From Actinomycetes bacterium (lineage in GTDB: Bacteria > Actinomycetota > Acidimicrobiia > Acidimicrobiales > Poriferisodalaceae): 36,128 bases of DNA. The position numbers and the translations under genes are program-made. The stretch lies in assembly GCA_024228575.1 (NCBI GenBank), contig JAAETH010000260.1, forward strand, positions 1-36,128, read 5' to 3'. Of this stretch, positions 30,016-36,128 are shown one piece after another; the first letter of the stretch is position 1; every line of letters begins with the position of its first letter. Under the pieces are notes generated by a model, which worked only from the letters and a program-made list of their open reading frames with translations, did no database searches and had not been told where the DNA came from.

Positions 30016-30042
30016 TGGAGCTGATGGTGTGGAGCTGATGGG
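30016..30042. repeat. Tandem 13-bp direct repeat of the tRNA-Ala 3' end
   Basis: GTGGAGCTGATGG occurs at 30016-30028 and again at 30030-30042. On the minus strand each copy is the end of the T-arm plus the acceptor strand CAGCTCC. The right copy is continuous with the T-arm and anticodon loop. The left copy carries the encoded ACCA and runs into the terminator-like hairpin. Confidence 0.9.
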
Positions 30043-30075
30043 ACTCGAACCCACGACTTCCTGCTTGCAAAGCTG
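30030..30075 (-). other. Attachment-site remnant: 3' half of tRNA-Ala(UGC)
   Basis: Read on the minus strand from 30075: the anticodon loop TTTGCAA (anticodon TGC), the 3' anticodon stem GCAGG, variable AAGTC, T-arm GTGGGTTCGAGTCCCAT, then acceptor strand CAGCTCC. The U at the acceptor position that would pair with G3 is kept, the identity mark of tRNA-Ala. The 5' anticodon strand should be CCTGC-like but is ACAGC, and no D-arm or 5' acceptor follows. The break in the anticodon stem is a usual crossover site of tyrosine recombinases, so this is read as the distal att site of an integrated element. Confidence 0.82.
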
Positions 30076-30324: not shown

Positions 30325-31528
30325 GTGCTGTGACCGGGATTGTGTGGTTGTTTGGCGCGTCCACCACTTGGGGGTTGGGGCCTGTTTTGATGGTGGGATG
30401 TCTGAACGAGTTCGGGTCCGTCGCTTGACCCATGAAGAGGGCCTACAGATCCAGCGGATCGTGCATCGTGGCGGCGTGCTCTGGTTGTGCACGCATCGGC
30501 TGGGGCAACACGGTGCCGGTGATAGCCCGGCTTGTGGTCACCTCCGAGGACCGGGTTCGCGAGATGATCCACCGGTTCAACGACCTGGGGATGCGATCGC
30601 TGGACCCTCAGTGGGCGGGTGGCCGTCCCCGCCAGACAACGACTGACGATGAAGCCTTCATCGTCGCGACTGCCCGCACACGTCCCGAGAAACTCGACCA
30701 GCCCTTCACCCGGTGGAGTATCGGCAAGCTTGTCGACTACCTCGCCGACAACAGCGATCGGGTCGTCACCGTCGGCCGTGAACAGCTCCGGCTGGTACTC
30801 AAGACCAACGGGATCACCTTTCAGCGAACCAAGACCTGGAAGGAATCCAACGACCCGGATCGTGGCGCGAAGTTGGACCGTATCGAGCACGTGCTCGAAC
30901 ATCACCCGGATCGCACGTTCGCGTTCGACGAGTTCGGGCCCTTATCGATCCGACCCGTTGGCGGATCGTGCTGGGCGGCCAAGAGCCATCCAAAACGTCA
31001 ACCAGCGAACTACAACAAGCTCCACGGGGTCCGCCAGTTCCACGGCTGCTACTCGATCGGTGATGACGAACTATGGGGCGTCGTACGCAACCACAAGTCA
31101 GCAGCCAACACCCTCGCAGCGTTGAAATCGATCCGGGCTCGCCGCCCCGACGGTGACCAGATCTATGTGATCCTCGACAACCTGTCGGCCCACAAAGGCA
31201 CCAAGATCAGGGCCTGGGCGAACAGGCACCATGTTGAGTTGTGTTTCACACCGACCTACAGCTCGTGGGCGAACCCGATCGAAGCCCACTTCGGGCCCCT
31301 ACGCGATTTCGTGCTCAACAACTCGAACCACCCCAACCACGTCGTGCTGACCCGCCGACTAGATGCACACCTGCGCTGGCGCAACGCCAACGCCAGAGCA
31401 CCCGAACTACTCGCCGCTCAACGACGAGAACGAGCACGAGTCCGAGCCGAGAAAGGCCACCGATGGGGACGACCAGCCACACAAGCCGCATGACCCGCCA
31501 ACCGCGCGAACGTTTCCGGTCACAGCAC
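30325..31528 (+). mobile_element. IS630-family insertion sequence (1204 bp)
   Basis: Perfect 13-bp terminal inverted repeats, GTGCTGTGACCGG at 30325-30337 and its complement at 31516-31528, are flanked on both sides by TA (30323-30324 and 31529-31530), the target duplication of IS630/Tc1 elements. The element holds one transposase reading (30398-31493) with frame damage. It landed 3 bp past the stop codon of the next gene, which it did not interrupt. Confidence 0.93.
30398..31493 (+). pseudogene. IS630 transposase, N-terminally frameshifted
   Basis: DDE transposase. The genuine N-terminus, RVRVRRLTHEEG from an ATG at 30398, is in one frame up to about 30476. A short RRALVVHASAG follows in a second frame. 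From GNTVPVIARLV to the end the protein is in a third frame, open from 30432 to 31493. Compared with related transposases as I remember them, about seven residues (STSSVRY-like) are missing and one G is lost in a G-run near 30512. The catalytic residues remain: D in FAFDEFGP, D in YVILDNLSAHK and E in WANPIEAHFG. Probably inactive unless rescued by frameshifting. Confidence 0.85.
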
Positions 31529-32774: not shown

Positions 32775-33131
32775 TTGCTCAGCAGCTTCCTAGTTGGCAA
32801 GGACACCAACGCCGAAGGCACTGAGACCGCCGACGGGTTTGTCGTCTACGCCGGATCGCTGGCTCGGACGGCCCGGGTTCCCTCCATCCACGCCTATGTG
32901 ACCCAACTCCGAGCGGCCTTGCTGGAGAAGGGCCTGTTCGCCGAAGCCGACAAGCATCTGCGCCTGACCGAGGACTACGTGTTCGCGTCGCCGTCGACCG
33001 CCGCGATGGTCATGCTCGGCCGGACAGCGAAAGGCAGGGTCGAGTGGAAGACTCCGAACGGCCGGACCCTCAAGGAACTACAGACGGCCGACACAACAGC
33101 CGAGACGTGGGAGAGATCCAGCGATGGATGA
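32775..33131 (+). CDS. DUF4357-domain protein, apparently N-terminally truncated (118 aa)
   Basis: Almost the whole protein is a DUF4357 domain: GFVVYAGSLAR, then VPSIHAYVTQLRAALLEKGL, then the hallmark DYVFASPSTAAMVMLGR and the WKTPNGRTLKELQ end. In full-length relatives this domain follows a nuclease such as GIY-YIG or another effector; none is present. The start is uncertain. The TTG at 32775 is the only start codon between the domain and the divergent gene. An ATG at 32649 would overlap the divergent gene and add unrelated residues. It overlaps the next gene by 8 bases, so it is probably translated with it. Confidence 0.7.
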   Translation: MLSSFLVGKDTNAEGTETADGFVVYAGSLARTARVPSIHAYVTQLRAALLEKGLFAEADKHLRLTEDYVFASPSTAAMVMLGRTAKGRVEWKTPNGRTLKELQTADTTAETWERSSDG

Positions 33132-34287
33132 TCGCAAAGCTCCGCTACCACAGGAGGGTCAGCAGCTCGAGTTCAAGGAAGCCCTTGACCCGACCGCTGC
33201 CAAGGATCGTCTCACCCTGGTCAAAGAGGTAGTGGCGTTCGCCAACGCGAACGGCGGGAAGATCGTCGTTGGCGTGGCCGATGACGGTGTACCTATCGGA
33301 GTCCCAGCAGCCCAAGCAACAAGATGGGATCCATCCAAGATCGGTGACCTGCTTGACTCCTTCATCGGCCCAGACCATCTCGAGGTATCGATCTCAACGT
33401 CCACTGAGAACGTGGCCGAAGGGATGATCCTGGTGACGATCGATGTCCCGCAGTACGAGGCTCCACCGCTCGTGCTTGGCAAGGATGGCAACCACAGCGG
33501 CGGCAGCCAGGCTTTCCGCCGCTACTCGGTGTTCGTGAGGCACAACACAAAGGCCGAGCCAGCCCGACGTGGTGACTACCTGAAGTGGCGAGACGACCTC
33601 CGCAATCGCATTCTTCAGCAGTTCCAGATGGCGGTCGAGGCCCCAGAGACCGCACACCTTCGGATCATTGGCGATGACGAGGTGCGCGACGAGCCGAACT
33701 TCTTCCTCTCACGAGCTGCCGACCTGTTCCGCCAGCGACCAGAGAAGCTCCTCGACGGGGATGACCTGCTCTACCTGTTCCGGAACCGCGAGGTCCTCGA
33801 TTTCACCGCCGATCTAGTGCCGGGACTCCTCGTCCAGAGCGCACGGCAGCGGCGAGCGACCCTGTTCTTCTGGCTGGCGCTCTCGGGAGTCGGAGCGATG
33901 AGGGTCACTCGGATCCTTGGCGGTGCTCTGCACATGTCTGATCGTGACAAGTCCGACATGGCCAGCGCTGTGCCGTTGGTCGCAGCCCTATACCTCAGCG
34001 CAACCGACTACGCAGAGCTGGTAGGTCTCATGGCCGCATCGTCGTATGCGCACATTTTGGAAGCAGCGAAGGAGTTCCCAACGATCATCGAAGCGAGAGC
34101 GGCGGTCGACGAACGGCGGAATGGCGCTATCGACCGGGTCCAACTAGCGGATCTCGCCGACGACCAACTGCTCGATCAGGCAACAGCCTTGGCCGAAGAG
34201 CACAACTCTGGACACATCTCACGCCGCATGCCGAACCTCGGGCTGGAGTACCTCGGCCGTCGACTGCGCATACCAAAGGCAGAGTAA
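33124..34287 (+). CDS. AlbA_2 (Schlafen-type) domain protein with unknown helical C-terminus (387 aa)
   Basis: The N-terminal ~160 residues form an AlbA_2 putative nucleic-acid-binding domain: EGQQLEFKEAL (about 11-21), LVKEVVAFANANGGKIVVGVADDG (32-55) and a late FVRHNTKAEPA segment. The remaining ~220 residues are mostly helical and unrecognised, with RRATLFFWLALSGVGAMR and a closing LEYLGRRLR. Related AlbA_2 proteins occur as regulators and, in some cases, in nuclease or defence contexts. GGAGAG lies 8 bases before the ATG. It overlaps the DUF4357 gene by 8 bases. A 9-bp hairpin at 34382 follows. Confidence 0.8.
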   Translation: MDDRKAPLPQEGQQLEFKEALDPTAAKDRLTLVKEVVAFANANGGKIVVGVADDGVPIGVPAAQATRWDPSKIGDLLDSFIGPDHLEVSISTSTENVAEGMILVTIDVPQYEAPPLVLGKDGNHSGGSQAFRRYSVFVRHNTKAEPARRGDYLKWRDDLRNRILQQFQMAVEAPETAHLRIIGDDEVRDEPNFFLSRAADLFRQRPEKLLDGDDLLYLFRNREVLDFTADLVPGLLVQSARQRRATLFFWLALSGVGAMRVTRILGGALHMSDRDKSDMASAVPLVAALYLSATDYAELVGLMAASSYAHILEAAKEFPTIIEARAAVDERRNGAIDRVQLADLADDQLLDQATALAEEHNSGHISRRMPNLGLEYLGRRLRIPKAE

Positions 34288-34409: not shown

Positions 34410-34459
34410 GAGACATCCCAATCGTTCAGGTTCCGGACGCTGGCTACTCTCAACTTCTG

Positions 34460-34479
34460 TTTAGAGCACCTTTAGAGTA
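34460..34479 (+). promoter_or_regulatory. Paired TTTAGAG sites downstream of the AlbA_2/HATPase gene
   Basis: TTTAGAG (34460-34466) and TTTAGAGTA (34471-34479) are direct repeats 11 bp apart, about one helical turn. The same word forms the palindrome in front of the regulator gene at 35952-35978. An ATG follows 4 bases later (34483), but the frame behind it is antisense to the regulator and is not accepted as a gene. Confidence 0.5.
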
Positions 34480-34530: not shown

Positions 34531-35949
34531 TTATTCAGCGAGGATTGTCCAGTAGGCCCGCGGATCTTTGGGGCTGTTTCCAACCCAGGAGATGACTCCT
34601 GCCTCACGGAGAGCGTTCAGCTGGCGAATCACGACGGGGCGAGACCGTCCAGTCGCCTCCACCAGGTCACCAGTGCTCACCCTGCCGCCTTCACGTACGA
34701 AGCGCACCAGATCTCTTGAACCGGCGGGAAGGCGCGCCTCGAGCTCGCGATCGACAGCCGTAGAGGGAAGAGTCAATCGAACGCTTCCCGATGTCTGCTG
34801 GTACTCGGGGTCTGCTAGTCCCGCTAGGCGCATTTCCTCGAACATCCGTCTGACGCCCTCACCGAGTTCCTGGCCGAAGGCGAGGTCTGCACAGACTCGG
34901 GCTATCCGCGGGTTGCGAGCGAAGCGGGTGATGTGAAGCGGATCCGTCAAGTCGGCGATCCCGGGGAACCGCCCGGGGCTTTCCACTTCGATGCGGTCGT
35001 CGAAGATCTCGACCCTGATGTGGTCACCTCCGACGCTGTAGGAGCGGTGCACCACGCCGTTCACGATGGCCTCGAGCCATGCGTCTTGGGGCACGAGACC
35101 GATCGATTCGAATCGTCCACTGCGGCCAAGCGCCTTACGTTTCGGCGTCTGCTCGATCATCTCATTGCGAGCGGCGCGCAGCTGATGGGGAATAGGACCG
35201 TCAATGCGGGAATCGTGCAACAGCTGCTGCCGCGCGCCGGTGCCCCGCTCAGTTCCACGGTACCGAAGGACCCGAACACTCGCCTCAGGAAACCATCGTT
35301 GGGGTTCGACGCCGAAGAGCAGCACGGCCGCCGCCGTGAGTGCTCCATCAGGCTTCGCCAAGCCTCTCGCCACCAGGAGCCGCTTCGGGTCTGGGTGATT
35401 GACAGCAATCGCGTATGAGGTGAGAAGCGCGCCATCGAGATCGTCGAATGCAGCGTCGTGTATGACAGTGCTCTCGAATGTAGATTGCCCCTTGTCGTAG
35501 AGGAGTTCCTGGCGTTGGGCAAAGGTCAAACGCCTGTTCTCGTCACCGACACGCAAGAAGACCTCGTCCTTCTTGTTCGTGTGGACCTGACCGCTGGTCT
35601 CGACGTCTACGACGACGAGCTCATCGATTTGACCATCGCTGTTCACGCACTCAACGGGTCTCGTTCTGCATGGGACCGTCGGCGTTGTGAAGTCGAGCGC
35701 AGCCTGCTGCCAGCTCGCCAGTTGTCCCTTCTTCGTCTTCGTGACGCCCTCTACTTTGCCGTCCCACAGGCCGACGACAACAGTGCCCCCCTCGGCGTTC
35801 GCGAAACCGATCAGGCAGTCGGCGAGGTCCTTGGCCGCAACCCTTGGACTCTTTCGATCGAACCACTGGTCCTCGGCAAGCTCTAGGAGCGCGCTCCCTC
35901 GTTCTTCGGCTGGCAACGCCAGCGCCTGCTCGGCGGCAACGGTAGACAT
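34531..35949 (-). CDS. AlbA_2 / HATPase / winged-helix transcriptional regulator (472 aa)
   Basis: Likely DNA-binding regulator. The N-terminal AlbA_2 domain (about 20-140) has EDQWFDRKSPRV, LADCLIGFANAEGGTVVVGLWDG and EVFLRVGDENRRLT. The middle region holds a RecG-type HATPase (HATPase_c_4-like): WLEAIVNGVVHRSY (N-box) and FDDRIEVESPGRFPG. The C-terminal ~65 residues form a winged helix: GRVSTGDLVEATGRSRPVVIRQLN then LREAGVI. The ATG at 35949 has no ribosome site but follows a palindrome with a -10-like box, suggesting a leaderless, self-regulated transcript. It lies 44 bp downstream of the integrase on the same strand. Confidence 0.87.
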   Translation of the reverse strand: MSTVAAEQALALPAEERGSALLELAEDQWFDRKSPRVAAKDLADCLIGFANAEGGTVVVGLWDGKVEGVTKTKKGQLASWQQAALDFTTPTVPCRTRPVECVNSDGQIDELVVVDVETSGQVHTNKKDEVFLRVGDENRRLTFAQRQELLYDKGQSTFESTVIHDAAFDDLDGALLTSYAIAVNHPDPKRLLVARGLAKPDGALTAAAVLLFGVEPQRWFPEASVRVLRYRGTERGTGARQQLLHDSRIDGPIPHQLRAARNEMIEQTPKRKALGRSGRFESIGLVPQDAWLEAIVNGVVHRSYSVGGDHIRVEIFDDRIEVESPGRFPGIADLTDPLHITRFARNPRIARVCADLAFGQELGEGVRRMFEEMRLAGLADPEYQQTSGSVRLTLPSTAVDRELEARLPAGSRDLVRFVREGGRVSTGDLVEATGRSRPVVIRQLNALREAGVISWVGNSPKDPRAYWTILAE

Positions 35950-35951
35950 TC

Positions 35952-35978
35952 AATTACTCTAAACCATTTAGAGTAATT
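35952..35978 (-). promoter_or_regulatory. Perfect 12-bp inverted-repeat operator at the regulator start
   Basis: AATTACTCTAAA (35952-35963) and TTTAGAGTAATT (35967-35978) are separated by CCA. On the minus strand TAGAGT lies 6 bases before the ATG at 35949 and could be the -10 box of a leaderless promoter, so a protein bound to the palindrome would block transcription. The regulator beside it is the obvious candidate binder. Confidence 0.8.
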
Positions 35979-35993
35979 GCGAGCTCGCTCACG

Positions 35994-36128
35994 TCACTGA
36001 GCGTCGGCGACGCTCGACAGCAGTTCGTCCCATGCCTCGGCGGCGTGGGGGAGGCTCGGTCGGACGCTGTGGCGATAGCCCTCGGCAGTACGGGCATCGC
36101 CGTGCCCGGCGAGGTCGGCGACCTTGAC
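35994..36128 (-). CDS. Tyrosine recombinase/integrase, C-terminal end only
   Basis: This frame is too short for an ordinary ORF list and runs off the right edge. It reads KVADLAGHGDARTAEGYRH, then SVRPSLPHAAEAWDELLSS. The LAGH pattern with TAEGYRH 7-8 residues later matches the box II end of phage-type integrases: the H of GH is the last catalytic His and the Y of EGYRH the nucleophile. It stops at 35994, 44 bp before the regulator start. Its N-terminal and core domains lie outside the window. Position and direction suit the integrase of the island whose other end is the tRNA-Ala fragment. Confidence 0.85.
   Translation of the reverse strand, partial: VKVADLAGHGDARTAEGYRHSVRPSLPHAAEAWDELLSSVADAQ

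Follow-up and report, generated by a model that had tools for sequence, protein, structure and literature searches.

Candidate operators flank a Schlafen-type gene that encodes its own DNA-binding tail

The stretch of DNA analysed here, referred to as the window, comprises 36,128 nucleotides of a contig from an acidimicrobial bacterium (Poriferisodalaceae). Near its end lies a minus-strand gene for a three-domain protein, with a perfect palindrome (op1) just before the start codon and an array of related half-sites (op2) past the stop codon (Table 1). On the far side of op1 the contig breaks off within what reads, by eye, as the C-terminus of a tyrosine integrase, and the stop codon of this putative integrase gene is located 15 nt before op1. 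Beyond op2 is a second SLFN_AlbA_2 gene (window positions 33124-34287; 387 aa, with a different C-terminus), which is convergent with the first, such that op2 lies between them. Farther away, a tRNA-Ala fragment probably represents the attachment-site end of an island that holds the gene. An IS630-like transposase gene (DDE_3, HTH_32; 30432-31493) is present within this probable island.

Table 1. Features of the locus and of related arrays. Positions are those of the window unless a locus identifier (L) is given.
Feature	Position	Strand	Remarks
45-bp copy of tRNA-Ala(TGC) 3' end	30029..30073	-	100% identical to intact tRNA-Ala elsewhere in the genome
op2 half-sites	34445..34479	none	34471-34479 and 34460-34468 direct, 11 bp apart; 34445-34453 inverted
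Gene, 472 aa, SLFN_AlbA_2 + HATPase_c_4 + winged helix	34531..35949	-	
ArsR/SmtB-type winged helix, aa 414-454	34588..34710	-	Pfam and fold; candidate operator-binding domain
HATPase_c_4 domain, aa 308-394	34768..35028	-	Pfam
SLFN_AlbA_2 domain, aa 26-141	35527..35874	-	conserved E26, D31, K33, E67
op1, perfect 13-3-13 palindrome	35951..35979	none	arms 35951-35963 and 35967-35979
-10 box TAGAGT	35956..35961	-	in promoter-proximal op1 arm; 6 nt before ATG
Possible degenerate third half-site, AGCTCGCAA	35977..35985	-	10 bp upstream of op1 left arm; from sequence
Tyrosine integrase gene 3' end (GHGDARTAEGYRHS...)	35994..36128	-	cut by contig end; read by eye; too short for family match
10-bp units in tandem (as many as 20 perfect copies), located at the stop codon or shortly past it, distant homologues from Streptococcus, Fusobacterium and contigs of a viral collection	L153:4414-4613; L180 from 2893; L181 from 2899; L185:3931-3982; L187:3926-3956		

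The protein matches the Pfam families SLFN_AlbA_2 (47.1 bits against a gathering cut-off of 25.3), HATPase_c_4 and HTH_5. Residues E26, D/E31, K33 and E/D67 are conserved, with E26, D/E31 and E/D67 present in most of 64 sequences. For comparison, the catalytic-type triad of SLFN13 consists of E205, E210 and D248 (PMC5862951), such that the carboxylates are spaced by 5 and 38 residues in that enzyme and by 5 and 36 in the window protein, where E67 is assigned by spacing only. The AlphaFold2 model of the protein has a mean pLDDT of 85. The best structural match found by Foldseek, extending over most of the length, is PDB 3lmm (Corynebacterium diphtheriae DIP2311), while the N-terminal core matches human SLFN13 and SLFN14 and the C-terminus matches SmtB-type winged-helix proteins. 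Sequence identity to 3lmm, SLFN13 and SLFN14 is low (about 12-25%), and we know of no operators described for 3lmm. Pfam detects no WYL domain, and thus the protein is not a BrxR/WYL regulator. PADLOC likewise matched no dedicated anti-phage system model, returning only a partial match to a pAgo model (aa 39-404) and weaker pAgo-type matches; the partial match is probably due to the presence of the same domain in some pAgo proteins. The initial annotation had termed the product an AlbA_2/HATPase regulator. The domains are as it proposed, with the winged helix, but "Schlafen-type nuclease/ATPase with a DNA-binding tail" is a more fitting description of the protein than "dedicated regulator". 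RNase activity is inferred from these likenesses, and we lean modestly towards an RNase or defence function. Two related loci carry one stop codon each (L092 and L094) and a third has frame breaks over the matched stretch (L049); these are probably decayed genes.

The palindrome reads CAATTACTCTAAA-CCA-TTTAGAGTAATTG, with 13-bp arms that contain no mismatch on either side of a 3-bp spacer, and it includes two inverted copies of the half-site TACTCTAAA (35955-35963 and 35967-35975). It had earlier been described as a perfect inverted repeat of 12 bp with a 3-bp spacer, at 35952-35978, directly before the ATG. Perfection, spacer and placement all hold, the gap to the start codon (35949-35947) being 1 bp, but the repeat had been drawn one base short at each end. 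op1 has a palindrome score of 13, whereas dinucleotide shuffles (n = 20) of the same 110 bp of upstream DNA reached 7 at best and 4.9 on average. In the 6.15-Mb genome there is one full site, and the 13-bp arm is found at no other place; when two mismatches are allowed, just two other matches to the arm appear, both isolated. As with the possible third half-site in the window, comparable half-sites are found 10-11 bp upstream of the left arm in relatives.

Relatives were drawn from 63 loci of a one-genome-per-species collection, most of them clear orthologues and the others from within the same order, together with two phage groups. A site of the form TACTnnAAA-nnn-TTTnnAGTA (9-3-9) precedes the orthologous gene in 52 of 69 loci, which span Acidimicrobiia, other Actinomycetota and two groups of temperate phages, and a TACTnnAAA-type site is found at 20 or 22 bp in two further Corynebacterium loci. 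Absence of the palindrome before close orthologues would have refuted the initial annotation; it is instead at the same place in most of them, phage copies included, as exemplified by phage Squirty, where CCTCTACTGTAAA-AGG-TTTACAGTAGAGG stands directly before a GTG. Across 92 arms there is hardly any change at T1, A2, C3, T4 and A8, whereas positions 5-6 are variable. This variation is mostly symmetric, with the arm variants CTCTAAA, CTTGAAA, CTCGAAA, CTGTAAA and CTTGCAA each paired with its own reverse complement. Arms that change on both sides together are what a DNA-bound dimer selects for. In about one fifth of the loci op1 lacks a clear palindrome, and several of these have only direct half-sites.

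A perfect palindrome may also act in RNA, and the strand can indeed fold (MFE -19.4 kcal/mol, z -2.4), as would a terminator or attenuator hairpin between the integrase gene and the Schlafen gene. However, a U-tract is absent, no terminator match was obtained, the half-sites of op2 are often direct repeats that cannot form a hairpin, and op1 is kept where the upstream gene differs. We therefore attach almost no weight to an RNA hairpin.

The position of op1 relative to the start codon is consistent with a role at a promoter. Exactly 6 nt (35955-35950) separate the TAGAGT from the ATG on the minus strand, as the initial annotation stated, and no Shine-Dalgarno-like sequence is present between them, again in agreement with it. 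The distance from the right arm of the 9-3-9 site to the ATG or GTG is exactly 5 nt in 32 of the 52 relatives that carry the site. In 30 of these 32 the hexamer that starts at -12 conforms to TANNNT (TAGAGT in 20, TATAGT in 4, TACAGT in 4 and TAGACT in 2), and a Shine-Dalgarno-like motif is found in only 2 of the 52. According to published work, leaderless genes, which are common in Actinobacteria, are marked by a TANNNT about 12 bp upstream of the start (PMC3160421). Genes with op1 share the exact position and consensus of this element, but differ in that the -10 box coincides with an operator arm. A standard scan accepted no sigma-70 -35/-10 pair, and a -35 consensus was not found; the promoter call therefore rests on the -10 box and its position. 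The proposed overlap of palindrome and leaderless promoter is thus upheld among the relatives, with a -10 box at leaderless distance in those 32 loci. By sequence criteria the gene is leaderless (TANNNT near -12, no Shine-Dalgarno), the start of the transcript at the start codon being inferred.

The palindrome appears to be dedicated to this gene. A degenerate search for full sites in 17 genomes, reached via the loci, returned 30 distinct sites, 29 of which are at the Schlafen gene. The exception is an operator-like array (L172:1501-1534; TACTCGAAA-cgg-TTGCGAGTA-gc-TGCGAGTAG) adjoining an ssb-like gene on another Brachybacterium contig, in a genome that also carries the Schlafen gene. This array is possibly a target or a decoy in a prophage, or it may have arisen by chance. 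These counts, with the single full palindrome in the 6.15-Mb genome, show no sign of a regulon, and a large one was rejected on this basis. A REP/RAYT-type element can also be rejected, as each genome has only 1-4 sites, nearly all of them next to the gene, and the protein has no transposase domain. The Schlafen gene itself is, as a rule, present once per genome.

It could be argued that a different regulator, whose gene lies elsewhere, binds the palindrome, since direct evidence of binding by the Schlafen protein is missing and mutual information between recognition helix and operator arms is dominated by phylogeny. Nonetheless, the site accompanies the gene in different classes and in phages but hardly occurs anywhere else in the genome, and the Schlafen protein has an SmtB-like winged helix of its own. 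We consider a foreign regulator improbable. A conserved palindrome over the gene's own promoter, combined with a DNA-binding domain in its product, satisfies what can be asked of an autorepressor at the level of sequence; binding and repression are inferred.

The initial annotation had captured only half of the architecture, as the stop codon is closely followed by a second operator array. Along the gene strand, from 34479 to 34445, op2 reads TACTCTAAA-gg-TGCTCTAAA-cagaag-TTGAGAGTA, occupying 51-86 nt past the stop codon. The closest relative (L035) has half-sites at the window's offsets of +51, +62 and +77, plus another at +88. With a matrix made from op1 arms only, at least two half-sites were found within 220 bp downstream of the gene in 19 of 56 loci and in none of 638 control windows; a regular-expression version of the test gave 19 of 56 loci against 5 of 1428 control windows (Fisher p 1e-24). 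About two thirds of the loci showed no detectable op2. Half-sites within op2 are spaced helically, by 10-11 bp, and the commonest arrangements are direct neighbours at 11 bp and inverted ones at 12 bp. An unusual op1 arm is usually matched in op2, for example in L078, where both sides have TACTTGATAGATCTATCAAGTA, and in L075 and L092, where they have TACTCGAAA. Some of these matches are recent long direct repeats, and so the likeness between op1 and op2 is partly due to duplication. Even so, we regard it as likely, in the absence of binding data, that op2 is bound by the same Schlafen protein that would bind op1. A promoter function of op2 for the next gene was rejected, because a start codon at +5 follows none of 35 inverted half-sites.

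Duplication also leaves room for the alternative that only op1 regulates, and that op2 is a relic promoter-operator, left when the op1-gene unit was duplicated in tandem and the second copy was then lost. Traces of such duplications do exist: a truncated second gene copy lies past op2 in one locus (L076:4381-4674), and direct repeats of 75-155 bp flank the gene in about ten loci, where upstream copies can hold a remnant of the gene 3' end (a remnant of this kind is located upstream in L037:2756-2908). However, op2 in L055, L065, L068, L035 and L041 keeps a four-half-site symmetry of its own, unlike a decaying copy, and its offsets after the stop codon are equal in the window and L035. The lack of start codons at +5 also speaks against a former promoter, and the multi-copy 10-bp arrays of distant homologues are not promoter copies. 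A relic origin thus remains conceivable but unlikely.

Those distant homologues, from outside Actinomycetota, are 31-36% identical to the window protein and collinear with it through the winged helix, and their downstream arrays are purer. In Streptococcus dysgalactiae the array (TAGGATACAG)x20 starts about 30 bp after the stop codon, and in S. respiraculi TTTATTGTAG repeats run from the stop codon onward. Fusobacterium homologues have CTAGTA-type units after the stop, and two contigs from a viral collection carry TTTTAAGTAG x5 and GTCCTAGTAA x3. Pairs of AGTA 9-12 bp apart occur within 150 bp past the stop in five of six distant homologues and are nearly absent in control windows; the odd one among the six is S. 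respiraculi, which has a GTAG core instead. A scan of viral contigs with the window protein gave no match.

The layout is not general to proteins that combine Schlafen, ATPase and winged-helix domains. Homologues of about 23-32% identity from within the order are without this operator, three of them having unrelated direct repeats. The AGTA array is also missing in one faecal and six Proteobacterial homologues examined, one of which is embedded in a BREX operon (L193), unlike the window clade. Because the faecal and Proteobacterial homologues lack the array, the two-sided operator layout, as judged from these comparisons, marks a clade and not the whole domain family. In the open-access papers searched we found no description of a single gene paired with operators on either side, in several phyla and in phages.

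Several observations indicate that the gene moves. About 8 of 67 loci have a tRNA gene no more than 500 bp away, where about one would be expected assuming one tRNA gene per 70 kb, and phage copies of the Schlafen gene adjoin integrase genes. In phage Squirty (L150:3950-6712) the gene is close to a RelA/SpoT-like gene in the integrase-proximal region. In another locus (L088:2724-6428) a 3.6-kb stretch extends from a tRNA-Thr gene to a partial duplicate of its 3' end and holds the Schlafen gene, both operators and a RelB-like ORF, with no recognised integrase. In genome G327 the 3' end of msrA and an operator (157 bp) are duplicated beside the Schlafen gene (L132:4668-4824; L133:196-352).

This mobility raises the question of whether an integrase or a one-gene mobile element might use op1 and op2 as its crossover or end sites. 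The gene is next to a putative integrase gene in the window and to integrase genes in phages, tRNA genes are near the loci noted above, homology between unrelated loci ends near the operators, and genome G418 has a solo operator unit without the Schlafen gene at the 3' end of msrA (L134:5180-5270). However, the attachment sites are elsewhere (the tRNA-Ala fragment in the window and the tRNA-Thr duplicate in L088), and integrases were detected near only a minority of loci, albeit with a profile built from few sequences. Moreover, a single gene copy per genome is the rule, and the sites fit the -10/ATG spacing exactly. A recombination function therefore seems very unlikely.

We conclude that op1 probably serves a self-contained, mobile Schlafen gene of the defence type as its dedicated autoregulatory operator, with binding, repression and RNase action inferred; autorepression at op1 is the inference in which we place the most trust. 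The C-terminal winged helix, as a dimer, would bind op1 and block RNA polymerase, leaving the gene nearly silent and self-limiting. Copies bound at op2 might either cover the 3' end of the gene or reach across to op1 and close a DNA loop of some 1.45 kb; both arrangements could tighten repression and retain the protein at the gene that encodes it. That op2 serves in bridging is inferred and remains tentative. A signal of phage infection, perhaps acting via the ATPase, may then release the protein to cleave RNA (tRNA).

Looping repressors such as those of lac and gal and lambda CI combine a promoter operator with a distant second operator, and the window locus resembles them in having op1 at the promoter and a distant op2. 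It differs in that op2 follows the stop codon of the repressor's own gene and is helically phased; looping is not shown. BrxR/WYL autorepressors, which belong to defence islands, have an inverted repeat (11 bp, 5-bp spacer) at their own promoter and a second box about 0.8 kb on (PMC9122601), and share with the window locus a winged-helix protein, an inverted repeat at its own promoter and a distant second box. BrxR, however, is a pure regulator whose second box precedes another promoter (PMC9122601), whereas the DNA-binding tail of the window protein sits on a putative effector and op2 precedes no conserved gene. Proteins that join a Schlafen RNase, a minimal histidine-kinase ATPase and a winged helix are described as accessory defence effectors near BREX (PMC12839542). 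Their three-domain order is that of the window protein, and the homologue in L193 is inside a BREX operon. In the window clade, unlike these BREX-associated fusions, the gene stands alone on islands and prophages and is flanked on either side by dedicated operators.

A more speculative proposal, which we consider rather doubtful, is that the phased half-site array past the stop codon is a DNA depot on which the Schlafen nuclease is kept inactive at its own gene, in the form of a filament or a loop, until phage-induced DNA loss or remodelling, or ATP turnover, sets the active enzyme free. The length of the array, 3-4 half-sites in the window and its nearest kin and up to 20 copies of the 10-bp unit in Streptococcus, would then set the trigger threshold. 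If true, this would amount to a single-gene immune sensor stored on its own locus.

The simplest account remains that of a self-contained, horizontally moving defence-type Schlafen gene silenced via its own DNA-binding tail, in which binding, repression, bridging, triggering and RNase action are all inferred. Bacterial Schlafens have begun to emerge as a class of anti-phage RNases, toxic enzymes whose silencing and triggering are still an open question. For this clade, sequence alone provides a probable DNA target (TACTnnAAA half-sites), its placement on the promoter and a further phased array after the gene, both with natural variants. With these named, binding, autorepression, bridging, ATP dependence and triggering by phage therefore become testable with short oligonucleotides and reporters.
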